Assembly (NCBI GenBank): GCA_014762635.1
Contig: JABURR010000047.1
Span: 1-64,000, forward strand
From: Paracoccaceae bacterium
GTDB taxonomy: Bacteria; Pseudomonadota; Alphaproteobacteria; Rhodobacterales; Rhodobacteraceae
Reading direction: 5' to 3'
DNA length: 64,000 bases
The notes below the pieces were generated by a model. It saw only the letters and a program-made list of their open reading frames with translations. It was not told the origin of the DNA and made no database searches. A program made the position numbers and the translations under genes. Every line of letters starts with the position of its first letter. Positions within the stretch are counted from its first letter, which is position 1. Of the stretch, positions 1,002 through 57,144 are shown piece by piece.

Positions 1002-3020
1002 TCACTCGGCCGCCAGCGCGCCATTGGCACGCGCCTGGGCATTTGCGGACAGCTCGGCCATCAGGGTCGAGGCCCGCGCGATCGGGTTGGTCAGGTAGAA
1101 ATCCTTCACGGCACCGGCGAAGTCGCCCTTGGCCAGCTTGCCGCCCTTGACCGGCTGCCATGCGTTTTCGGCAACCTCGTCGATCCGGCCCAGATGCGGC
1201 ACTTCGGCGATCAGCGCGCGGCGCAGGGCGGCCAGCGAGTCGTAGGGCAGCGTCGCGTCCAGCTCACCGGAAAGCGCCCGCAGGATCGCCCAGTTTTCCT
1301 TGGCTTCACCCGGCGCGAAACCCGCGCGAAGGGCAAGCTGCGGCCGACCTTCGGTATTAACGAAAAGGCCCTGCTCCTCGGTATAGGCCGCACCCGGCAG
1401 GATCACGTCGGCGCGATGCGCGCCGCGGTCGCCGTGGCTGCCCTGATAAATCACGAACGGCCCGGCGGCGATCTCGATCTCGTCGGCGCCGAGGTTGTAG
1501 ACCACCTCCGCCCCATCGAGCGCACCGAGAATGCCGTCCTCGTTCACCGCGCCCACATCCATCGCGCCGACGCGCGAAGCGGCGGTGTGGAGGACCATGA
1601 ACTTGGAGTTCGAGTTCTCGGCCAGTTGCATCGCCTCGGCCAGAACCGCGGCGCCATCCTCGCCGGTCAGGGCGCCCTGACCGATGATCACCACGGTGTT
1701 CTTGTCCTTGGCCTCGCCGATCTTCTTCTTCGCCAGATCGGCAAGCGCCGCCCGGTCGGTACCCACGTGGACGTAGTCGTAAGTCAGATCGACCGCCTCG
1801 CCCACCAGGCCCACGGTCGCGCCCTTGAGCCAGGCCTTGCGGATGCGGGCGTTCAGCACCGGCGCTTCGACCCGCGGGTTGGTGCCGATGAGCTGGATCA
1901 TCTCGGCATTGTCGATATCCTCGACCGTCGCCGTGCCCACATAGCCCGAGCGATTGCCCGCGGGCAGCTTGGCGCCATCGGTGCGGCATTCGACCGATCC
2001 GCCCTGCCCCTCGATCAGTTGCTTGAGGGCAAAGACAGCCTCGACCGGGGCCAGATCGCCCACAAGCCCGGCAACCTTCTTGCCCTTCATCGCCTTGGCG
2101 GCGGCGGAAAGCGCCTCGCCCCAGCTTGCGGGGCGCAGCTTGCCGTTTTCACGGATGTAGGGCCGGTCCAGACGCTGGCGGCGCAGACCGTCCCAGACGA
2201 AACGGGTCTTGTCCGAGATCCATTCCTCGTTCACGCCGTCATGGTTGCGCGGCAGGATCCGCATCACTTCGCGGCCCTTGGTGTCCACGCGGATGTTGGA
2301 CCCGAGCGCATCCATCACGTCGATGGTCTCGGTCTTGGTCAGTTCCCACGGACGCGCGGTAAACGCATAGGGCTTCGAGGTCAGCGCCCCAACGGGGCAC
2401 AGGTCGATGATGTTGCCCTGCATGTTGCTGTCGAGCGTCTGGTTCAGGTAGCTCGTGATCTCGGCATCCTCGCCGCGCCCGGTCTGGCCCATCTGGGTGA
2501 TCCCGGCGACCTCGGTCGTGAAGCGCACGCAGCGCGTGCAGGAAATGCAGCGAGTCATGTGGGTTTCGACAAGCGGGCCGAGGTTCAGGTCCTCGGTGGC
2601 GCGCTTGGGTTCGCGGTAGCGGCTGAAGTCCACGCCATAGGCCATCGCCTGGTCCTGCAGATCGCATTCGCCACCTTGGTCACAGATCGGGCAATCCAGC
2701 GGGTGGTTGATGAGCAGGAACTCCATCACCCCCTCGCGGGCCTTCTTGACCATGGGCGAGTTGGTCTTGACCACCGGCGGCTGACCTTCCGGCCCGGGGC
2801 GCAGGTCGCGCACCTGCATCGCGCAGGAGGCGGCGGGCTTCGGCGGACCGCCCACGACTTCCACAAGGCACATGCGGCAGTTGCCTGCGATCGACAGCCG
2901 CTCGTGATAGCAGAAACGAGGGATCTCGATCCCCGCCTGTTCACAGGCCTGGATCAAGGTCATCGCCGGATCGACCTCGATCTCTTTCCCGTCGATGATG
3001 ATCTTGCGCAAGTCGGACAT
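1002..3020 (-). CDS. nuoG: NADH-quinone oxidoreductase subunit G
   Basis: This is the peripheral-arm subunit that carries several iron-sulfur clusters between the NADH site and quinone. The 672-aa product starts [16 protein letters not shown]. Cysteines C37, C48, C51 and C66 fit the N-terminal [2Fe-2S] site. H106, C110, C113 and C119 fit the His-ligated [4Fe-4S] site. C158, C161, C164 and C208 fit a second [4Fe-4S] site. The remaining two-thirds is the molybdopterin-oxidoreductase-like fold. The length matches alphaproteobacterial and mitochondrial 75-kDa homologues rather than the longer E. coli form, and the extra N7 cluster motif is not evident. It lies between the DUF5333-like gene and nuoH. 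Confidence 0.97.
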
Positions 3021-3067
3021 TCAGACCCCTCGTGATTGGGCGGCGCCGAAGCGCCGCGCGCAGTTCC

Positions 3068-3496
3068 CTAGTGTTCCTTCAGCATCGTGCCCATGTAGGT
3101 CTCGGCCGCGATTTCCTCGCGCCCGAGGCGGCAGTAGCTTTCGCTATCCCCGCGCACCACGCCATTTTCCTTCAGATATTCGTCCCGCAGCCCGTTCATG
3201 CGGCGCTGCTCGACCTTCGAGTCAACGTAGGCCACGATTTCCTCGCGCGTGTAGCCCTGGTCCAGCGCGTAGCGTTCCAGCTCCCACTTGCGGCGCAGGA
3301 AGGTCACGTAACGCGGTGAAATCGACGGGCAGTTCTTGCGGATCTCGTCGCCGACGGCGGCCCCGAGAAGGCGGCTGTTGATATAGTCGTTCTCGCGCAG
3401 CGGCGGCGGTGTCTCGGCACGTGCCGCAGCCGGAGCAATCAGGGACGTTGCCAGCAGCGAAGCAAGCACGGTCGTGTTGATGAAACGGGCAATCAT
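3068..3496 (-). CDS. secreted DUF5333-like protein of the nuo operon
   Basis: A 142-aa protein of unknown function. Residues 1-27 form a clear Sec signal peptide (hydrophobic core TVLASLLATSLIAPAAA, likely cleavage after ARA), so it should act in the periplasm. The mature part is charged and helical (PRYVTFLRRKWELERYALDQ) and has two cysteines (the KNCPSI and SYCRLG segments) that could form a disulfide. From memory it resembles the DUF5333 family found between nuoF and nuoG in Rhodobacteraceae; that assignment was not checked by search. A GGAG site lies 8 nt before the ATG. The position suggests co-expression with complex I, but a periplasmic product cannot be part of the cytoplasmic arm. 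Confidence 0.8.
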   Translation of the reverse strand: MIARFINTTVLASLLATSLIAPAAARAETPPPLRENDYINSRLLGAAVGDEIRKNCPSISPRYVTFLRRKWELERYALDQGYTREEIVAYVDSKVEQRRMNGLRDEYLKENGVVRGDSESYCRLGREEIAAETYMGTMLKEH

Positions 3497-3674
3497 TGGA
3501 AAAACTCCGATCTGATCATTGCAATCTGGATCGAAGCTGGGGCTTTACCCGCTTGATATTCAATAACGACAGGGGCTGACGCAGCGTCATGCGCCAATCC
3601 CCGCGCAGCGGCGCATCCAACGGATGCCCCCTGCCCGGACGAATGACGGATATGCGTGGAAGCCCCCATCATAA

Positions 3675-4970
3675 TCACTCCGCCGCCACCGCGCTGACGC
3701 GCCCAGTGCGCTTGGCCTTGATGCGATCCTCGATCTCGTCACGGAAATGCCGGATCAGGCCCTGGATCGGCCAGGCCGCCGCGTCGCCAAGCGCACAGAT
3801 GGTGTGGCCCTCGACCTGCTTGGTGACGTCGAGCAGCATGTCGATTTCCTCTACCTCGGCCTCGCCCTTCACCAGACGGTCCATGACCCGCATCATCCAG
3901 CCCGTACCCTCGCGGCAGGGGGTGCACTGGCCGCAGCTTTCGTGCTTGTAGAATTTAGACAGGCGCCAGATCGCCTTGATGATATCGGTGGACTGATCCA
4001 TCACGATCACCGCCGCGGTGCCAAGGCCCGAGCGCTGCTCGCGCAGCCAGTCGAAATCCATGATCCCCTCGCGGATCACGTCCGCCGGAAGGCACGGCAC
4101 CGACGACCCGCCCGGGATCACGGCCTTCAGATTGTCCCAACCGCCACGAATGCCGCCGCAATGCTTTTCGATCAACTCCTCGAAGGTGATCGACATGGCC
4201 TCTTCCACGACACAGGGGTTATTCACATGGCCCGAGATCGCGAAAAGCTTGGTGCCCGCGTTGTTGGGGCGACCAAAGCCGGAAAACCAGTCCGCGCCGC
4301 GGCGCAGGATGGTCGGCACCACCGCGATGGATTCAACGTTGTTCACCGTGGTCGGGCAGCCATAGAGGCCTGCGCCTGCCGGGAACGGCGGCTTCATGCG
4401 GGGCATGCCCTTCCGGCCTTCGAGGCTTTCCAGAAGCGCGGTTTCCTCGCCGCAGATATAGGCGCCCGCGCCGTGGTGGAGGTAAAGGTCGAAATCCCAA
4501 CCCGACCCGGCGGCATTCTTGCCCAAAAGCCCGGCGTCATAGGCCTCATCGATGGCGGCCTGCAGCGCCTCGCGCTCGCGGATGTATTCGCCGCGGATGT
4601 AGATGTAGCAGGCATGCGCGTTCATCGCGAACGAAGCGATCAGGCAACCCTCGATCAGCGTGTGCGGATCGTGGCGCATGATCTCCCGGTCCTTGCAGGT
4701 GCCGGGTTCGGATTCGTCGGCATTGACCACCAGGTACGAGGGCCGGCCATCGCTTTCCTTCGGCATGAAGGACCACTTCAGCCCGGTCGGGAAGCCGGCG
4801 CCACCGCGCCCGCGCAATCCGCTGGCCTTCATCTCGTCGACGATCCAGTCGCGGCCCTTCTGGATGATCTTGGCGGTCCCGTCCCAATGGCCACGGGCCT
4901 TGGCGCCCGCAAGCGTGCGCTCGTGCATCCCGTAGAGATTGGTGAAGATCCGGTCCTGATCCTGCAGCAT
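3675..4970 (-). CDS. nuoF: NADH-quinone oxidoreductase subunit F
   Basis: This is the flavoprotein subunit that oxidises NADH through FMN and passes electrons to cluster N3. The 431-aa product has the FMN-binding glycine-rich segment [16 protein letters not shown] (residues 51-66). The NADH-binding motif [13 protein letters not shown] is at 167-179. The N3 [4Fe-4S] ligands are C346, C349, C352 (SCGQCTPC) and C392. The length matches the family. The ATG at 4970 follows the DUF5337-like gene by 6 nt. The stop is followed by a 178-bp gap before the DUF5333-like gene; the weak ORF in that gap is discussed under rejected items. Confidence 0.97.
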
Positions 4971-4976
4971 GTGGTG

Positions 4977-5207
4977 CTATCCCCGGTTATTCTGGCGCTT
5001 CCGCCAGATCTGGTAGGTGACGACCAGCGTCCAGAAGAACGCGGCCAGCGCGGCAAAGTCGAAGAGGAAGACGTAGCGCACCGGCAGGCCAAGCCTGCCG
5101 CCCAGCCATTGCGCCCCCATCCACAGGACCATGGTCGCCACCATGACAATCGCGACCATGCGCGCCTGCCTGGCAATCGCCATTTCCGTATCCTGGTCCT
5201 TCGACAT
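4977..5207 (-). CDS. small DUF5337-like membrane protein of the nuo operon
   Basis: A 76-aa protein starting MSKDQDTEMAIARQARM. It has a short charged N-terminus and two predicted membrane helices (about residues 17-34 and 42-65) with a basic C-terminus. I chose the ATG at 5207 over upstream starts because GAGGTGG sits at ideal distance before it and the upstream extension is not protein-like. From memory it matches the DUF5337 family of Rhodobacteraceae nuo operons; no function is known to me. It lies 6 nt before nuoF and 46 nt after the helix-hairpin-helix protein, so it is very likely co-transcribed. Confidence 0.8.
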   Translation of the reverse strand: MSKDQDTEMAIARQARMVAIVMVATMVLWMGAQWLGGRLGLPVRYVFLFDFAALAAFFWTLVVTYQIWRKRQNNRG

Positions 5208-5253
5208 TCCCACCTCTGTTTCAGCCCTAGCGCACGCTGGGGCCAGATATCGA

Positions 5254-5835
5254 CTATTTTGCAGCGAATTCCTTCGCCTGCCTGATCCATTCGTCCCGCT
5301 CGATGCGCCCCTTGAAGCTGAGTTGCTCATCCAACCACTCCACGTTCGCGGGCGTCAGCGCCGCGATCTGGCGGAAGTGGAAGATGCCCAGTCCGTTGAG
5401 CTTCTGCTCCAGCCCCGGTCCGATCCCCCGGATCTTCTTGAGATCATCCGGCATGCCGTCCGGACCGCTCAGAAGCTCCGGCTCTGCTCCGTCGCCACCG
5501 GTCGCAGGTGTTTCAGCCTTTTTCTCTGCCGCAGGGGCCGGTTCCGGTGCAGGGGCGGGTTCCTCTTTTGCCGGTTCCGCCGCCGGTTCGGGCGTTGCGG
5601 CCTTTGCCGGTTCGGAGGGAGCCGTCTGGGTGACCTGGGCCGCCCCGGGCGCCTCAGCTTTTCCCTGCAGCGCGAAATAGACGATGATCGCAACCACGAT
5701 CCCGACCAGAATGGCGATCAGAAGCGCGCCCCAGAACCCGAAGCCGCCGATGGCCATGAGCGCAATCAATGCGATCAGCGCCGCAACCCCGGCAATGATC
5801 GCGATCTGCTGAACGTTCACGTCTTTGTTTTCCAT
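5254..5835 (-). CDS. membrane-anchored helix-hairpin-helix-like protein, paralogous to the NuoE tail
   Basis: A 193-aa protein with two closely spaced N-terminal membrane helices (about residues 9-30 and 34-56), a Pro/Ala/Glu-rich linker (58-120) and a C-terminal domain at 130-190. That domain contains DDLKKIRGIGPGLEQKL and GRIERDEWIRQAK. It is strikingly similar to residues 288-349 of the adjacent NuoE, which reads [17 protein letters not shown] and [13 protein letters not shown]. The IxGIGP-type loop is the helix-hairpin-helix signature that in other proteins contacts nucleic acid or partner proteins. Here the anchor and the operon suggest tethering or assembly of complex I, which is inference. 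The start at 5835 has a GGAGGT site. Confidence 0.8.
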   Translation of the reverse strand: MENKDVNVQQIAIIAGVAALIALIALMAIGGFGFWGALLIAILVGIVVAIIVYFALQGKAEAPGAAQVTQTAPSEPAKAATPEPAAEPAKEEPAPAPEPAPAAEKKAETPATGGDGAEPELLSGPDGMPDDLKKIRGIGPGLEQKLNGLGIFHFRQIAALTPANVEWLDEQLSFKGRIERDEWIRQAKEFAAK

Positions 5836-5867
5836 CTGGCGGACCTCCTGTTGTCCCTAAAACGCGC

Positions 5868-6956
5868 TCAATATTTCGCGCGCTTCGAAAATTCCGTGGT
5901 ACCCCCTTCGGCCAGAACCTTGGCCTGCGCGACCCAATCGTCACGTTCGATGCGGCCGCGGAATTTCAGTTGGGTATCAACCCACGCGATCTGTTCGGAC
6001 GTCAGCGCAGCCACCTGATCATAATGCCAGATACCAAGATCGTTGAGTTTCTTCTCAAGCCCCGGTCCCACGCCCTTGATCATCTTCAGATCATCGGCCT
6101 TGCCATCGCGCGGCGCGTCCAGCGTGGCGGGCTTTTCCTCGGCCGCGGCGGGCGCTTCGGCTGTCTTCGCGGCAGGCGCCTTCTTGGGGGGCGCCTTGGC
6201 CTCGGCCTTGGGTTTCGGAGCCGCAGCGGCCTTCTTCGCCGCGCCCGACTTGTTCAGCCACGGCGTCAGCAGCGGCACCTCGGTGCCGTCGATCCGCTTG
6301 ACCGTGTCCCCGATCGAGGTCGCCAGGTGAACCGAGGCATTGCCGGTGGAGCGATCCTTGTCGAACTGCTGCAGGCTGGTCAGCCCGCCCGCGGGTTCCG
6401 AGGTGAAGCGCCCATTCTGCGGCCCCGGCACAGGCACCTTGCCAGCGGCGAGTTCGTCGATGATTTCACCCATCCGTGCGGCGGTCAGATCCTCGTAGTA
6501 GTCCTTGCCGATCTGGGCCATGGGCGCGTTGGCGCAGGCCCCGAGGCATTCAACCTCTTCCCAGCTGAACTTGCCGTCCGCCGACAGCTCATGCGGGTTC
6601 GCCGCGATCTTTTCCTTGCAAACGCCGATCAGGTCCTCGGCGCCGCAGATCATGCACGACGTGGTCCCGCAAACCTGGATATGCGCAACGGAGCCCACGG
6701 GTTGAAGCTGGAACATGAAATAGAAGGTCGCGACTTCCAGCGCCCGGATATAGGCCATGTCCAGCATCCCGGCGACATGCTCGATCGCCGGGCGGGTCAG
6801 CCAGCCTTCCTGCTCCTGTGCGCGCCACAGCAGCGGAATGATCGCGCTGGCCTGACGACCCTCAGGATACTTGGAAATCTGGGCCTCGGCCCATTTCTGG
6901 TTCGCCGGGGTGAAGGCGAAGCTCTCCGGCTGTTCTAGGTGGAGCCTTCTCAGCAT
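5868..6956 (-). CDS. nuoE: NADH-quinone oxidoreductase subunit E with a C-terminal extension
   Basis: This is the 24-kDa-type subunit carrying the N1a [2Fe-2S] cluster next to NuoF. Residues 1-180 hold the thioredoxin-like domain with ligands C96, C101, C137 and C141 (CX4C and CX3C). The protein is 362 aa, far longer than the roughly 170-240 aa usual for the subunit. Residues 235-285 form a Lys/Ala/Pro-rich linker, and 288-349 repeat the helix-hairpin-helix-like domain of the next gene. The extension, linker and order resemble other Rhodobacterales as I recall them. The ATG at 6956 lies directly after the stop of the 52-aa ORF, indicating coupled translation. Confidence 0.95.
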
Positions 6957-10044: not shown

Positions 10045-10934
<890 letters not shown>

Positions 10935-50609: not shown

Positions 50610-51458
50610 TCAGGCCGGGCCGGTGGCCGAAAAGAGGTTCATCACCGCCGGGATACGCACCTCGCCGCCGGTCTCGTAGCCGCGAAAGACATCGGCGATA
50701 TCCGCCTCGATCGCCGCGATCTGGGCGGCATCGGCCTGGTAGACCGAGATCAACCGCACCGCCGGGCCAAGCCGCGTTGCCAACCGGGCCACATCTTCAG
50801 GGCTTCCCTCCGGCGTCAGGTGAAGCGCCACCGGGTCACAGCGAACCTCCCAACCCGCGCGGGTCAGCATATCGCAAACCCGGACCTCATCCCCGAAGGC
50901 CAGCGCGCCCGGGGCATCGGGGTTGGTGGGCTCATCCCCCAGATGCGACACCGCGACCTGGCGGGGAAGCGAGAACCAAGGGTTGTCCTCCCCCCGCCGC
51001 CAGCAGATCAGCGCCATGGTCCCACCGGGCGCAACCGCGGCGCGGATATTGGCGCAGGCCGCCACCGGGTCTTCGAAGAACATCGACCCGAGACGCGAGA
51101 TCACCCGGTCGAAGCAGGCCGAACCCAGATCATCAACCTGCGCATCCGCGCAAAGATACGAGATCGGCGCGGCTTCCCCGCCCGCCTGCACGGAACGCGC
51201 ATGTGCCAGCAGCGGCTCGGAGATATCGACGCCGGTTACCCGCCCCCCTGCCCCGGCCATGCGCGCCGCCTCGCGGGTCGTCGCACCGGTGCCGCATCCC
51301 AGGTCGAGCACCCGGCTTCCCGCACTGATCCCCGACCGCGCCATCAGCGTCTCGGTCACCTCGCGCTGCATCACTTCCAGCTGTTGGTCGTAGCGGACCC
51401 ATTTCGCCCCGCTGGCCGAGTTCCAATAGGCGCGCTGGTCGGCATTGACGTCAGCCAT
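50610..51458 (-). CDS. class I SAM-dependent methyltransferase
   Basis: A 282-aa methyltransferase with the SAM-binding motif [15 protein letters not shown], followed by [15 protein letters not shown] (acidic residue binding the ribose) and [16 protein letters not shown]. The fold is of the UbiE/Coq5-like group, and the substrate is unknown. The ATG at 51458 follows GGAGACGG. Its leader and start codon lie at the edge of the first copy of the 0.33-kb direct repeat and are exactly repeated before the 84-aa gene at 52,871. Confidence 0.9.
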
Positions 51459-51776
51459 GATCCGTCTCCGTTGCAGAAATTGCACAGGCGGCGGATGCTG
51501 CGCGCGCGGCCTGTGGCATGTGACCCTTGCCTCTCATATATCGCGGCCAGACAACTGGCGAATCTTTCCATGACCGATACTGAACAAATGCCCTTCCGGC
51601 TTGGCTGGGAGGAATGGGTGGCGCTTCCGGGGCTGAAGGCGAAGGTGGATACCGGCGCGCGGACCTCGGCGCTGCACGCCTCCGAGATCGAGCCCTTTGG
51701 CCCGGCAAGCCGCCCCCGCGTCCGCTTCCTGGTGCATCCGGTGCCTGGGCGCACGGACGTGGCGATCCCCTGCTCG
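51454..51776. repeat. direct repeat copy 1 (323 bp)
   Basis: This block contains the methyltransferase start codon and leader, the divergent intergenic region (51459-51569) and the first 207 nt of the RimB-RimK gene. By eye it is identical to 52867-53204 except that it lacks 15 bp present there at 53048-53062. Similarity stops abruptly at both ends. Confidence 0.92.
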
Positions 51777-51827
51777 ACCACCGAACCGTCCGCCGCCGTA
51801 ACCACCTTGCCGATCCGGCGTTGGTGA
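51570..51827 (+). pseudogene. truncated 5' copy of the RimB-RimK fusion gene
   Basis: The frame starts [21 protein letters not shown] as in the full gene at 52983 and continues to VAIPCS (51776). It then switches to unrelated sequence and stops after 16 foreign residues, 85 codons in all. The five residues LGLPA are missing by an in-frame 15-bp deletion. Only the start of the protease-like domain remains, so it is almost certainly non-functional, though it still has the duplicated promoter and could be expressed. Confidence 0.85.
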
Positions 51828-52616: not shown

Positions 52617-52871
52617 TCACCTCCGAGCCCGGCCGATCTGCCAGCCCAAATATGCCGCACCTTCGCCCGCGGCCTCGGCCCCCCGCAGCATGACCATGCC
52701 CTTCATGAAATTGAAAGATGCCATGCCTAGCCTGAAGAATTCTTCCAGCATATGATGAGTGCGGCCAAGGAAGTGATATTGCAGGTCGGGCTGACAGGTG
52801 CTGATCTGGCGTTCTTCTCTATTGACCTGACGCTGGTTGACGCGGATCGACAGCAGATCGATCGCCGCCAT
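52617..52871 (-). CDS. cassette protein of unknown function (84 aa), start codon inside the repeat
   Basis: An 84-aa product, [21 protein letters not shown]... ending [14 protein letters not shown]. Its ATG, first GC bases, ribosome site (GGAGACGG) and leader are those of the methyltransferase gene copied in repeat copy 2. Only the coding part from the second codon on is unique. The stop overlaps the ribosome site of the 249-aa gene. There are 84 codons with no stop in a lower-GC sequence, a weak argument for coding. The C-terminal half is hydrophobic ([15 protein letters not shown]), possibly one membrane-associated helix. No family is recognised. Confidence 0.55.
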
Positions 52872-53204
52872 GATCCGTCTCCGTTGCAGAAATTGCACAG
52901 GCGGCGGATGCTGCGCGCGCGGCCTGTGGCATGTGACCCTTGCCTCTCATATATCGCGGCCAGACAACTGGCGAATCTTTCCATGACCGATACTGAACAA
53001 ATGCCCTTCCGGCTTGGCTGGGAGGAATGGGTGGCGCTTCCGGGGCTCGGGCTTCCGGCGCTGAAGGCGAAGGTGGATACCGGCGCGCGGACCTCGGCGC
53101 TGCACGCCTCCGAGATCGAGCCCTTTGGCCCGGCAAGCCGCCCCCGCGTCCGCTTCCTGGTGCATCCGGTGCCTGGGCGCACGGACGTGGCGATCCCCTG
53201 CTCG
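52867..53204. repeat. direct repeat copy 2 (338 bp)
   Basis: The second copy is 15 bp longer than copy 1. It begins 2 bp before the ATG of the divergent gene and ends inside the RimB-RimK gene. The 15 bp (53048-53062) encode LGLPA, which fits the usual family sequence ahead of [11 protein letters not shown]. This copy is therefore the parental form, and copy 1 has lost the segment, probably by slippage between CTTCCGG repeats. Confidence 0.92.
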
Positions 53205-54386
53205 GCCGAGGTGACGGACCGGCGCGAGGTGACCAGCTCCAACGGTGAATCCGAGTGGCGCTATGTCATCACGTCCGAAATCGAGATCGGCGGCCGTCGC
53301 TGGCCCATCGAGCTGACGCTGACCGACCGGGGCAGCATGGCCTACCGGATGTTGCTGGGCCGCCAGGCCCTGGGCGAGGATATCGTCGTGGCCCCCGGCG
53401 ACAGTTTCTGTCAGCCGCAGCTTGGCTACGACGTCTACCACTCCTCGGACCTGCGCAGCGCCCAACCAGACCGCGCCCTGCGCATCGCGGTCCTCTCGCG
53501 CGAGGCGCATAGCTATTCGACCCGGCGCCTGGTCAGCGAAGGCGAAAAGCGTGGCCACGTGGTCGAGGTGATCGACACCACCCGCTGCTACATGGCGATC
53601 GACGCAATCGCGCCGGGCGTCCATTACGATGGCAAGCGCCTGCCCCGCTATGACGCGGTGATCCCGCGCATCGGCGCATCGGTCACCACCTATGGCACCG
53701 CCGTGATCCGCCAGTTCGAGACTATCGGCACCTATTGCGTGAACGGCTCGGATGGGATCATCGCCAGCCGCGACAAGCTGCAGGCGCATCAGATCCTCGC
53801 CCGCCACGGGATCGGGATGCCCACCACCGCCTTTGCCTATTCACCCAAGGATACCGACAACCTGATCGGTCTTGTGGGGGGCGCGCCGCTGATCCTGAAA
53901 CTGCTGGAATCGACGCAAGGAAAAGGCGTCGTGCTGGCCGAGACCAAGAAGGCCGCGCAATCGGTGATCTCGGCCTTCCGGGGGCTGAAGGCCAGTTTCC
54001 TGGTGCAGCATTTCGTCAAGGAAGCCGCCGGAGAAGACATCCGCTGCCTTGTCATCGGCGGCAAGGTCGTGGGCGCCATGCGCCGGGTCGCGGCCCCGGG
54101 GGAGTTCCGCTCGAACCTGCACCAGGGCGGCACGGCGGAACCCGTGCGCATCACCAAGGAAGAACGCGACACCGCGATCCGCGCCGCGCGGGCGTTTCGG
54201 CTGAACCTTGCGGGCGTGGACCTGCTGCGATCCGAGGACGGGCCGAAGGTGCTGGAGGTGAACTCCTCACCGGGTTTTGAGGGGATCGAGACCTCCTCGC
54301 GCAAGAACATCGCCGGGCTGCTCTATGGCGAGATCGAGAAGAAGGTCCGCCCCGCCCCGGTGCGGAAACCGAGGAAGGGGAAGTGA
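52983..54386 (+). CDS. RimB-like protease domain fused to RimK-type ATP-grasp ligase
   Basis: A 467-aa fusion. Residues 10-155 are an ATP-dependent zinc protease/RimB-type domain (PF05618), a retropepsin-like fold with the motif [15 protein letters not shown] (DTGA at 32-35). Residues 170-455 are a RimK-type ATP-grasp ligase with the ATP-binding segments [39 protein letters not shown] and the metal-binding [14 protein letters not shown]. RimK adds glutamates to the C-terminus of ribosomal protein S6, and RimB-type proteases modulate such modification; here both are in one chain. The ATG at 52983 lies inside repeat copy 2. Confidence 0.9.
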
Positions 54387-54490
54387 GCGGCCCCAAGTAT
54401 GAAAAGGGAGGCAAGCAGAAGAAATTCTTTCCGCTTGAGTTCGAGAGCCTGCGAGGTGTGGCTGGCCCCAATGAGGCCAGCCATCGCGAG

Positions 54491-54772
54491 TTAGATCGAA
54501 TGATCAGTAATGAACCGATATGTCTTCTTTCGAATGGGCTCACCCTTGAACTGGAGAAGCTTGCTGCCCTGAGCCGCCTTTCGCATGGATTCTTGGAGGC
54601 TCAGTTTAGCCTGTTCCGTCACAAAAGCCTTTACTTCTTTGACAACGTTTTCACGCGTGTCACTGCGTCCGCAGTTGGGACAAGAAAAAACGTTGTCGTC
54701 TTTTCCATCCGAAGGGCCCTCAATCGGTACGCGACAAGTGCCACAAAGAATGTTTTGGATATCGCCACTCAT
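54491..54772 (-). CDS. small zinc-ribbon protein coupled to the GIY-YIG gene
   Basis: A 93-aa protein with two CxxC knuckles (C10/C13 and C31/C34) forming a CX2C-X17-CX2C zinc ribbon, followed by a basic helical tail (NVVKEVKAFVTEQAKLSLQESMRKAAQ). It could bind nucleic acid or act as a partner of the nuclease-like protein encoded just upstream. The start shares bases with that gene's stop (TAATG), so translation is coupled. The composition is more AT-rich than in neighbouring genes. No named family is recognised. Confidence 0.75.
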   Translation of the reverse strand: MSGDIQNILCGTCRVPIEGPSDGKDDNVFSCPNCGRSDTRENVVKEVKAFVTEQAKLSLQESMRKAAQGSKLLQFKGEPIRKKTYRFITDHSI

Positions 54773-55122
54773 TAGCGGAAACCTCCCAAAACGTTCTGGG
54801 CATTGGCAACAGGATTCAAACCGTGTCGAAGATCAGTTTCAATGCGCAAGCGCTCGGCTTCGCCAGCCACGACAAGCACAGCGATATGGGTCATACCGCG
54901 ACGAGCGGCCCGACCGTAGCCATCGTGAGAGTGAATACCAACATTCAATCTTTGTTCGAAGGACTGGGTTTCACCAACGTAGAGCGCTTCCCAACTCCCA
55001 GGAGTAATCTGTCGACAGAAGATATAGACACCTGAGACCGCGTTGAACTGCGTCCCGTTGGGGTACGCTTCGAAGGTGTACGATTTACCGCTCGCACCGC
55101 GCCAAGAAATATTGAAAGCCAT
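54772..55122 (-). CDS. stand-alone GIY-YIG nuclease-like protein
   Basis: A 116-aa protein. GVYIF (31-35) and LYVGET (47-52) are the GIY and YIG strands with Y33 and Y48. R58 in SFEQRL and E95 in RIETDLRH match the catalytic arginine and metal-binding glutamate of the family. N103 in GLNPVANAQ is the usual conserved Asn. All key residues are present, so it is probably active. It has no DNA-binding domain of its own, and the zinc-ribbon gene that follows may supply one (inference). AAGGAG precedes the ATG but is folded into a hairpin. Confidence 0.85.
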   Translation of the reverse strand: MAFNISWRGASGKSYTFEAYPNGTQFNAVSGVYIFCRQITPGSWEALYVGETQSFEQRLNVGIHSHDGYGRAARRGMTHIAVLVVAGEAERLRIETDLRHGLNPVANAQNVLGGFR

Positions 55123-55126
55123 TTTG

Positions 55127-55142
55127 GGCTCCTTTTGGAGCC
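55127..55142 (-). promoter_or_regulatory. hairpin masking the GIY-YIG ribosome site
   Basis: On the minus-strand mRNA, GGCTCC-AAAA-GGAGCC forms a perfect 6-bp stem. The Shine-Dalgarno bases AAGGAG span its loop and 3' arm, ending 6 nt before the ATG at 55122. Translation should depend on opening this stem. Confidence 0.5.
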
Positions 55143-55152
55143 GCAGGATGGC

Positions 55153-55181
55153 TTGACGATTTCGCTGAATCAGTGGATAAT
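55153..55181 (+). promoter_or_regulatory. strong sigma-70 promoter for the candidate small RNA
   Basis: TTGACG (55153-55158), 17 nt and GATAAT (55176-55181) make the best consensus promoter in the accessory region, with a start near 55,188. The palindrome ACGAATTCGT (55188-55197) sits at the start point and could be an operator. Confidence 0.6.
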
Positions 55182-55187
55182 ATCAGC

Positions 55188-55266
55188 ACGAATTCGTACA
55201 AATCTGCCTTCCTACGGCAGGTCAATTTTGAGGCGACGGGTCTAGCCACCCGTCGCCTTTTCTATT
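55188..55266 (+). ncRNA. candidate small RNA of about 75 nt
   Basis: Predicted transcript from the promoter at 55,153 to an intrinsic terminator. A first hairpin CTGCC-N7-GGCAG (55204-55220) exposes TTCCTAC in its loop. The terminator stem GGCGACGGGT (55232-55241)/ACCCGTCGCC (55248-55257), loop CTAGCC, is followed by TTTTCTATT. No open frame of note occurs. The only upstream plus-strand gene ends 770 bp away, so the terminator needs a local transcript. Expression is unproven. Confidence 0.5.
55197..55225 (-). promoter_or_regulatory. possible promoter of the GIY-YIG/zinc-ribbon pair
   Basis: On the minus strand TTGACC (55225-55220), 17 nt and TTTGTA (55202-55197) would start near 55,190, giving a leader of about 65 nt that includes the masking hairpin. 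It overlaps the small-RNA gene head-to-head. Confidence 0.35.
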
Positions 55267-55338
55267 GTACCTGATTCGTTCGCTACAGCATAGAGTTTGT
55301 GGCGAAAATATGGCGTTATACAAAATATGTTAGATCGC

Positions 55339-55366
55339 ACGAGGTTCGAATCCCCGCTCCGCTAGC
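55339..55366 (+). other. tRNA 3'-end-like fragment at the edge of the AT-rich island
   Basis: The bases CGAGG-TTCGAAT-CCCCG resemble a T arm (one mismatch), followed by an acceptor-like CTCCGCT, with AT-rich sequence before and GC-rich sequence after. No matching 5' half is present. Such fragments are left when elements integrate into tRNA genes, so this may be an attachment-site remnant. Confidence 0.35.
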
Positions 55367-55494
55367 CGACCGGCCCCGCCATGATGCTCTGTCTAATCAT
55401 ACATGACGGCTTTCCTGTCCCGGTGCGGCAGACTGATTCCCGACGAACACCTAAACCCCAAACCGTCAAATTTGCTCCGTAAGACCATAAAGCA

Positions 55495-55520
55495 AAGGCG
55501 CGGGGTCTCCCCCGCGCCTT
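55495..55520. terminator. terminator of the aldehyde dehydrogenase gene, possibly bidirectional
   Basis: Perfect 11-bp arms AAGGCGCGGGG (55495-55505) and CCCCGCGCCTT (55510-55520) enclose TCTC. TTTGCTTTA follows on the minus strand and TCCGTTT on the plus strand. It begins 20 nt after the dehydrogenase stop. Confidence 0.8.
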
Positions 55521-55540
55521 TCCGTTTCCGCGGGTCCCGC

Positions 55541-56989
55541 TCAGAACGGGTAGTGCTGGTGCGGGTCCTCGATGGTGATCCAGCGCAGTTCGGTGAACTC
55601 ATCCACGCCGGCCGAGCCGCCGAAGCGACCGTAACCGGAGTTCTTCACCCCGCCGAAGGGCATCTGCGCCTCGTCATGCACCGTGGGGCCGTTGATGTGG
55701 CAAATGCCGCTCTCGATCCGCTTGGCCAGCTTCAGCGCCTTCTGCACGTCGCCGCTGTAGATCGAAGCCGACAGCCCGTATTCGGTGTCATTGGCCAGTT
55801 CCACCGCGTGATCGGCGTCCTTCGCGCGGACGATGCAGACCACCGGGCCAAAGCTTTCCTCGCGGAAGAGCCGCATGTCCTGCGTGACCTTGTCGACAAT
55901 GGTCGCGGGCATGATCGTGCCCGCCTCGGGCCCGCCGGTGACCAGCACGCCCCCCTTGGAAAGCGCGTCGTCAATCAGCCCGTCCACCTTGTCGATGGTC
56001 GCCCGATCGATGACCGAGCCCAGAACGACCGGCTCGCGCGGGTCGCCATGGGGTAGATCGGCGGCCTTCTTGGCGAATTTCTCGACGAAGGCATCGGCGA
56101 CCTTCTCATCCACGATGATGCGCTCGGTCGACATGCAGATCTGGCCCTGGTTCATGAAGGCGCCGAAGGCCGCGCCGTTCACCGCCGCGTCCAGATCGGC
56201 GTCGTCCAGCACCAGCATCGGGGCCTTGCCGCCCAGTTCCAGCAGCACCGGTTTCAGATGCTTCGCCGCCGTCTCGGCGATGATCCGGCCCACGCGGGTG
56301 GAGCCGGTGAAGTTGATGCGCTTGACCTTCGGATGCTCGATCAGGCGCGTCACCACCTCGGGCGCGTCCTCGGCGGCATGGGTCACGATGTTGATTACGC
56401 CCTTGGGCAGCCCAGCTTCCTCGAAGCATTCGGCGATCATCAGGTGCAGGTGCGGGCACATCTCGCTGGCTTTCAGCACTACGGTGTTGCCGCAGGCGAT
56501 GGGCATGGCGACCGCGCGCATCCCCAGGATAACCGGCGCGTTCCAGGGCGCCATGCCCACCAGAACGCCCACCGGCTGACGCACCGCCATTGCGAAGTTG
56601 CCGGGCTTGTCGGAAGGCACGATCTCGCCCTTGATCTGGGTGGTCATCGCCGCCGCCTCGCGCAGGACCTTGGCGGCGAACATCACGTTGAAGCCGATCC
56701 AGGGACCGGTGGCGCCGGTTTCGGCCACGCCGACCTCGATGAACCTGGGCGTCTTTTCTTCCAGGATATCGGCCGCCTTCATCAGGATCTCGCGCCGCTT
56801 GCCGGGGCCTTCCTCGGACCAGTCCGGGAACGCCTTCGCCGCCGCCTCGACCGCGCGGTCCACGTCCACGGCCTTCGCCGCGGGCGCCTTGGTCGCGACC
56901 TCGCCGGTCACCGGATCCCTGCGCTCGAAAACCGTCTTGTCCTTGGCGGCACTCTGCTTGCCGCCGATCAACAGCTCGATCTCAGCCAT
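55541..56989 (-). CDS. aldehyde dehydrogenase (aromatic/vanillin-salicylaldehyde type)
   Basis: A 482-aa NAD(P)-dependent aldehyde dehydrogenase with N150 (APWNAPVILG), general base E251 (LLELGGKAP) and nucleophile C285 (FMNQGQICMSTER). MNQGQICMST and WIGFNVMFAAKVLREAA resemble enzymes for vanillin, salicylaldehyde or benzaldehyde. I chose the ATG at 56989, which has GAGGAGG 9 nt upstream. It is divergent from a ThDP-dependent decarboxylase-like gene, which suggests it oxidises the aldehyde that enzyme releases (inference). Confidence 0.9.
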   Translation of the reverse strand: MAEIELLIGGKQSAAKDKTVFERRDPVTGEVATKAPAAKAVDVDRAVEAAAKAFPDWSEEGPGKRREILMKAADILEEKTPRFIEVGVAETGATGPWIGFNVMFAAKVLREAAAMTTQIKGEIVPSDKPGNFAMAVRQPVGVLVGMAPWNAPVILGMRAVAMPIACGNTVVLKASEMCPHLHLMIAECFEEAGLPKGVINIVTHAAEDAPEVVTRLIEHPKVKRINFTGSTRVGRIIAETAAKHLKPVLLELGGKAPMLVLDDADLDAAVNGAAFGAFMNQGQICMSTERIIVDEKVADAFVEKFAKKAADLPHGDPREPVVLGSVIDRATIDKVDGLIDDALSKGGVLVTGGPEAGTIMPATIVDKVTQDMRLFREESFGPVVCIVRAKDADHAVELANDTEYGLSASIYSGDVQKALKLAKRIESGICHINGPTVHDEAQMPFGGVKNSGYGRFGGSAGVDEFTELRWITIEDPHQHYPF

Positions 56990-57144
56990 CTGCAGTTTCC
57001 TCCTCATTCGACAGTTTCACCCTTTGATCTGCTCTTCGCACGGGCGGGGACAATTGACAATGTTCACCAAACCCCGTGTCAAAGCCACGAAAATGCGTTA
57101 TGTTCCATGTTTGGCGCGGGAAGAGGACGCCGAGGAGGACGGTC

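Follow-up and report, generated by a model that had tools for sequence, protein, structure and literature searches.

A putative antisense RNA gene divergent from a standalone GIY-YIG nuclease gene, and its carriage by transposons in two relatives

Upstream of the gene for a small GIY-YIG protein in a Paracoccaceae genome, and pointing away from it, lie a promoter-like sequence and an intrinsic terminator. This raises the question of whether they delimit a gene for a small RNA and, if so, what such an RNA would do to the nuclease beside it. The locus was analysed within a 64,000-nucleotide stretch of contig JABURR010000047.1 (hereafter the window) and compared with loci encoding homologous nucleases. 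The reading that we favour, and hold to be moderately probable, is a mobile module in which a standalone GIY-YIG nuclease is accompanied by a divergent cis-antisense RNA of approximately 75-80 nt, complementary to the leader of the nuclease mRNA.

The RNA gene and its surroundings in the window

A sequence-only reading of this DNA had proposed that a small RNA gene, equipped with a promoter and an intrinsic terminator of its own, diverges from the GIY-YIG gene, a proposal that is supported here and whose layout recurs in relatives. The elements considered are:

54491..54772, minus strand: Zn-ribbon-like ORF, 93 aa, overlapping the nuclease stop; family matches all below curated cut-offs
54772..55122, minus strand: GIY-YIG nuclease, 116 aa; matched by Pfam GIY-YIG with E 0.0039, short of the curated cut-off
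55153..55181, plus strand: RNA promoter TTGACG-N17-GATAAT (TTGACG 55153-55158, GATAAT 55176-55181)
55188..55262, plus strand: candidate antisense-like RNA, ~75 nt, predicted +1 at 55188, from fold, shared layout and strand tests
55188..55197, no strand: perfect 10-bp palindrome ACGAATTCGT, the predicted +1 to +10, from the comparison of 14 loci (7/14)
55202..55222, plus strand: middle hairpin ATCTGCC-TTCCTAC-GGCAGGT with 7-nt loop TTCCTAC, from the inner-part fold and G.U count
55230..55263, plus strand: intrinsic terminator with 12-pair stem, 6-nt loop and T-rich tail (stem-loop 55230-55259, tail TTCTATT)
55269-55264, minus strand: TACAAT, a candidate for the -10 box of the nuclease mRNA, past the terminator; -35 weak, best ATGCTG with a 16-nt spacer

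On re-reading of the sequence, promoter, hairpin and terminator lie at the positions first given for them, no gene intervenes between promoter and terminator, and the terminator stem described as 10 bp proves slightly better, with 12 pairs (11 Watson-Crick and one outer G.U). Of the triplets ATG, GTG and TTG, the RNA contains a single instance, TTG at 55228. The fold energy of the predicted RNA, -33.1 kcal/mol (z -5.7), is equalled by 0 of 200 shuffles, and a slightly longer stretch gives z -6.1. When both strands of the 64 kb were scanned for a -35-like hexamer matching at least 5/6, a -35 and -10 jointly matching at least 9/12, and a hairpin 60-104 nt further on, 8 sites were returned, among which the RNA locus alone reaches 10/12 promoter matches; its hairpin, at -23.0 kcal/mol, is also the only one under -17 kcal/mol, the second strongest having -16.8. 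Searches of Rfam 15 returned nothing at the gathering score for the window RNA or for the RNAs of 13 other loci, and with a permissive E gave sub-threshold matches only, all of them off the RNA.

The predicted model of the nuclease (pLDDT 90) matches the GIY-YIG domain of UvrC over 81 residues (Z 10.3, 1.9 A) and T4 EndoII with Z 8.0, and the VIA-align matches listed for it include, among GIY-YIG kinds, UvrC, T4 EndoII, and the Eco29kI and PD-T4-3 restriction enzymes. Across 12 members of the nuclease family, G31, Y33, Y48, G50 and E95 are invariant and R58 is nearly so. Judged from its residues and its predicted model, the window protein has both the superfamily motifs, including the catalytic Arg and Glu, and the GIY-YIG fold (for a survey of GIY-YIG proteins, see PMC1564403).

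Genes for a RimK/Zn-protease fusion and for an aldehyde dehydrogenase lie further out from the RNA; DNA of the aldehyde dehydrogenase flank, used for an empty-site comparison, has matches in 5 of 61 genomes, its own included. No methyltransferase gene adjoins the nuclease in the window, the closest methyltransferase-like ORF among those scanned being at 50610-51485 with other genes between. A direct repeat of ~325 bp with 97-100% identity (51454-51779 and 52867-53207) duplicates part of the start of the RimK/Zn-protease fusion gene, the upstream copy being truncated according to the ORF list. On the RNA's other flank, at 55343-55364, is a tRNA-like scrap GGTTCGAATCCCCGCTCCGCTA comprising only the 3' part (T-arm and acceptor), which is possibly an integration scar; with up to 3 mismatches allowed, no second match to it, and hence no source, was found in its own genome.

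Recurrence of the layout among nuclease homologues

The RNA is present in single copy in its own genome, adjoining the nuclease, and its sequence was not found by DNA search in the 294 other genomes of the family: 3 of 295 genomes gave matches, namely its own and two others (L003 and L004), in which matches of 22 and 27 nt (E 0.005-0.009) are of a size expected by chance given the number of genomes. Relatives were sought through the nuclease instead. Counting the source genome each time, the family search gave homologues in 9 of 394 genomes and the class search in 43 of 385 (E 0.001; 45 matches); at E 1e-7 they were present in 9 of 390 order and 6 of 398 phylum genomes. The class-level matches include 24 of 45 in open frames of at least 594 aa, which are probably UvrC, and 15 of the 45 were left out of the locus comparison. 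Four further loci came from genome contigs and eight from viral contigs; plasmid and phage collections, searched as DNA or protein, gave a single distant plasmid homologue (L072) lacking the layout. A search for extra copies in the genera of two relatives gave one genome out of 9 in the first and the sole genome in the second, both with loci already known.

From these, 33 distinct loci were counted. Outside the count are copies or same places (L050, L051, L056-L058, L069, L065, L010, L019, L085, L087-L089), longer stretches of counted loci (L073-L078), a near copy of L022 in a different genome (L064), loci that are truncated or have no start codon (L012/L060, L021, L024), other architectures (L017, L018, L032, L034/L068), and open frames of at least 594 aa that are UvrC-like in appearance (L035-L048). 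L070 and L071 were rejected as spurious; the domain in L086 is a distant one and does not show the layout.

The layout was defined as an away-strand TTGAC (on the strand reading away from the nuclease) 20-64 nt from the start codon, with a strong hairpin 64-100 nt beyond. It is present in 14 of the 33 loci (the window, L006, L049, L007, L011, L008, L052, L059, L009, L015, L016, L020, L014 and L055), which were first recognised by eye, the definition being written afterwards; L059 was found later and fitted. In the 14 loci, 26-56 nt separate the TTGAC box from the start codon of the nuclease and the hairpin lies 73-95 nt further (distances in L014, whose match is interrupted by a stop and lacks a start codon, being measured from the frame opening), and a -10-like hexamer follows TTGAC by 15-18 nt. 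Promoters at the anchored TTGAC beat shuffles with a combined p of 8e-14, the anchor itself being selected. All nine loci whose nuclease is more than 50% identical to that of the window have the layout. It is missing from 19 of 33, with nuclease identities of 25-42%, an absence that is weaker for several loci with an uncertain start codon (e.g. L028, L033, L063, L066, L067). The sequence-only reading had staked its proposal on a promoter and terminator conserved in relatives with the GIY-YIG gene, and these counts do not refute it. On the homologue tree the trait needs 5 changes, and at least 3, so that the layout is either old, with losses, or moves.

Consensus matches at single loci are common, but chance matches to a promoter and terminator upstream of the gene are an extremely improbable explanation given recurrence at fixed position in so many homologue loci as against 0 of 99 control genes; shuffles yielded the layout in 10 of 2100 cases at a looser hairpin energy limit. 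Taken as patterns in DNA, these comparisons suggest that the recurrent RNA is probably a genuine regulator of the enzyme and no accident.

The length of the RNA, as measured in 10 of the 14 loci, is 77-81 nt, and the inner part containing the middle hairpin folds better than the shuffle mean in all 14, several barely (z -0.1 to -2.8). Near-constant length, a three-part architecture and attachment to one protein family would suit a structured partner of the nuclease (a type III-like inhibitor, a cofactor or a guide) in place of an antisense regulator. The absence of the RNA upstream of L013 (in G284) would suit it too, as it does the antisense reading: this homologue is 42% identical, its YIG, Arg and Glu are replaced (by eye), and it is possibly, from its sequence, an inactive, domesticated copy, although this co-loss of residues and RNA is one case on a long branch. 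Against a partner of this kind, an alignment of 10 loci retains, TTGAC aside, just four invariant single columns despite several relatives' nucleases being 76-79% identical to that of the window, and the position of the RNA over the mRNA leader is accounted for without binding. We regard such a partner as rather unlikely. Type III toxin-antitoxin RNAs are as a rule made of repeats; none was noticed by eye in the 75-nt RNA, and inspection of the RNAs by eye for the loop motif YUNR gave nothing consistent. Very improbable, in our estimate, is the stronger version in which the RNA is obligate, binding the GIY-YIG protein and directing or licensing its cutting as part of a transposon-borne GIY-YIG ribonucleoprotein.

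Promoter, length and terminator would also fit a free small RNA acting in trans on targets elsewhere in the genome. No common seed was seen in the alignments, however, and the sole genomic copy sits beside the nuclease, which makes this quite improbable. The divergence of the RNA bears on the same point. Between the window and L006, L011 and L007 the RNA is 67-72% identical (chance being ~60% under the same gapped alignment) as against 78-82% for coding DNA, and drift beyond that of coding DNA fits a cis-antisense RNA whose target changes with it and argues against a fixed trans target. The pattern is not uniform, and the argument does not extend to every pair: RNA identity exceeds coding identity in L052-L059 (78 vs 60%), L011-L059 (77 vs 68%), L006-L049 (90 vs 87%) and further such pairs.

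Strand, start site and the nuclease leader

By raw energy the away strand is the more stable of the two in 11 of the 14 loci (the nuclease strand being favoured in L011, L059 and L016), and against dinucleotide shuffles of the same sequences it is favoured in all 14 (Wilcoxon p 1.2e-4). MAFFT did not align the stems of the relatives' RNAs, and pairs were therefore counted by position and not through a covariance model. Since stems enter such a count by virtue of their pairing, how many types of pair they show is no independent evidence; the asymmetry between G.U and A.C alone is. In stems chosen strand-blind in the 14 loci, G.U cells outnumber A.C cells 20 to 4 (p 0.0015), an asymmetry still not fully independent, as L006/L049 and L052/L059 are near relatives, and in the middle hairpin the wobbles are 9 G.U vs 0 A.C. 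By eye, the wobbles of L061 point to the opposite strand. The wobble asymmetry and the shuffle-controlled energies together indicate an RNA directed away from the nuclease. The 8 nt past the hairpin hold a mean of 4.1 T on the away side vs 2.0 on the other; this T-run is weak in L006, L049, L007, L014 and L016, and is equally readable as the A-rich 5' start of the nuclease mRNA.

These tests also bear on a reading in which what is conserved is a structure of the DNA or 5' UTR, an mRNA hairpin plus operator that the nuclease perhaps binds or cuts, with no functional plus-strand RNA. Binding or cutting of such a site by the nuclease itself would have precedent in I-TevI or in the Ssn nucleases, the latter, in a 2025 report, reportedly being GIY-YIG ssDNA nucleases. 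Three loci (L023, L026 and L027) keep a hairpin near the nuclease gene with no TTGAC box or RNA gene, and the palindrome is exact and constant in position, as such a structure would predict, but a TTGAC with a -10 at fixed distance, and plus-strand wobbles and energies, would then be unexpected, and we consider the reading unlikely. In L027 and L023 a TATAAT- or TATAAG-like box was seen by eye just ahead of the hairpin on the nuclease strand.

In 7 of the 14 loci a perfect palindrome of 10 bp or more has its centre 39-41 nt past the first T of TTGAC, with one of 8 bp in an eighth, as compared with 1 in ~3290 positions elsewhere in the same stretches; their sequence varies (ACGAATTCGT, GTGATATCAC, GTGAGCTCAC, GTTATATAAC) while their position is constant. 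The simplest reading of this pattern would be an operator over the RNA start, the alternative a self-pairing RNA end. Loci without a palindrome at +1 have, by eye, inverted repeats around the -10.

The minus-strand promoter proposed earlier within the RNA gene, TTGACC-N17-TTTGTA, is present as written (55225-55197), but its -10 hexamer is poor and it is unconserved, toward-strand TTGAC occurring inside the RNA gene in 3 of the 14, with offsets that bear no relation to one another. Judged by sequence, the site past the terminator would be the better candidate for the nuclease promoter. Promoter-like sequence on the toward strand ahead of the hairpin beats shuffles over the 14 loci (combined p 1.3e-4), a result driven by L009, where the candidate is TTGACG-N17-GACAAT, and L007; in the window alone p is 0.30, and the candidate is weak there and in several other loci. 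We infer that both transcripts exist and that the nuclease mRNA starts past the terminator, in which case the RNA would be complementary to its leader. The earlier suggestion was that two opposed transcripts would exclude each other; with such a start they would instead be sense and antisense to one another along the full length of the RNA, which goes beyond mere exclusion, and they may form the 'switch' for the nuclease then suggested.

On the antisense reading, transcription of the RNA would begin at the TTGAC-type promoter that immediately precedes the ribosome-binding site of the nuclease, proceed in the direction opposite to the nuclease gene and end at the RNA's own terminator. The nuclease mRNA, probably initiating past that terminator, would carry a leader exactly complementary to the RNA along its full length. 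If RNA and leader paired, or the two transcriptions collided, little nuclease would be made until some factor, perhaps a dimeric protein on the +1 palindrome, shut off the RNA promoter. We infer antisense repression, and the palindrome as operator, in this scheme; repression by leader pairing or opposing transcription is proposed by analogy with known cases (PMC3874152 and PMC5415839). A ribosome-binding site hidden in the leader was considered as well and rejected, leader folds being -11.3 vs -11.6 kcal/mol in 99 control genes and the unpaired probability 0.47 (13 loci) vs 0.47 (51 controls).

Mobility and relation to known systems

In two relatives the module is carried by an IS1595-type transposon with 24-bp inverted ends and perfect 8-bp duplications on both sides, as in IS1595-family elements with passenger genes: in L007, from Roseovarius, at 2782-6085 (duplication GGCTTCTG), and in L008, from a Hyphomicrobiales metagenome assembly, at 2605-5863 (duplication TATTTTTA). 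The L007 transposase is DDE_Tnp_IS1595, and that of L008 is its homologue, split in two ORFs. The L007 transposon has as its cargo a DUF6471 protein, the transposase, the RNA, the GIY-YIG nuclease, a Zn-ribbon protein and a 122-aa ORF, and by eye seems to interrupt a prophage DNA-methylase gene; its Zn-ribbon protein, 71% identical to that of the window, follows the nuclease within the element. An IS1595-type transposase adjoins the gene in L055 and in L076 (the L016 locus), and a tyrosine integrase and tRNA-Leu adjoin it in L009. Ends of the L007/L008 type were not found in the 11 other relative loci searched; in the window the best match to them within 53801-57000 is 14/24, and none of 8 neighbouring ORFs scanned is a transposase. 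A 103-aa ORF opposite in strand to the nuclease and downstream of it is conserved in L006 (5439-5750), L049 (3439-3750) and L074 (5229-5540), the L006 copy having no Pfam family match; L006 also has a SAM/SAH riboswitch match above the gathering score at 10217-10265. At the level of sequence, comparison of the loci establishes the layout, the strand, the structure, the palindrome position and IS1595-type carriage in two relatives.

Transposon-borne antisense RNAs of ~70 nt directed at a 5' leader control the transposase in IS10 (RNA-OUT) and IS200, whereas here the RNA lies on a cargo nuclease and not on the transposase. Antisense RNAs that overlap a toxin mRNA at its 5' end, usually shorter than 80 nt, are described in PMC3874152, and cis-antisense RNAs are generally tied to plasmids, phages and transposons (PMC5415839). 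On the antisense reading the present RNA would act in the manner of symE-symR or of the EcoRI and Eco29kI reverse promoters. In the type I toxin-antitoxin pair symE-symR, too, a reverse promoter yields a short antisense RNA, complementary there to a long toxin-mRNA leader (PMC3874152); the present module differs in that the candidate toxin is a GIY-YIG nuclease, that a palindrome is present at +1, and that the RNA promoter is upstream of the start codon and not within the gene. Reverse promoters and antisense RNA also act on the restriction-modification genes of EcoRI (Rna0, 88 nt; PREV) and Eco29kI, in systems whose convergent promoters are mutually exclusive (PMC3874152), and Eco29kI is likewise a GIY-YIG enzyme, according to the titles of structures 3mx4/3nic. 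Unlike in these systems, the nuclease here has no methyltransferase gene adjoining it, and the RNA forms a unit of its own that precedes the gene and recurs over distant homologues. Within the titles and abstract openings searched, from which subscription literature is mostly absent, no GIY-YIG module with a small, antisense or guide RNA is described and no IS1595 cargo of GIY-YIG plus RNA was found, the sole text naming both GIY-YIG and IS1595 concerning casposons.

Because the RNA layout is kept while the sequence varies widely, libraries of RNA families miss this RNA, and the locus is a worked case of RNA genes found through their position relative to a protein family. If the antisense reading is true, the module would be a test case for restriction-like control by a reverse promoter without a methyltransferase, and an antisense-controlled solitary GIY-YIG nuclease would join the RNA-regulated modules of transposons and prophages.
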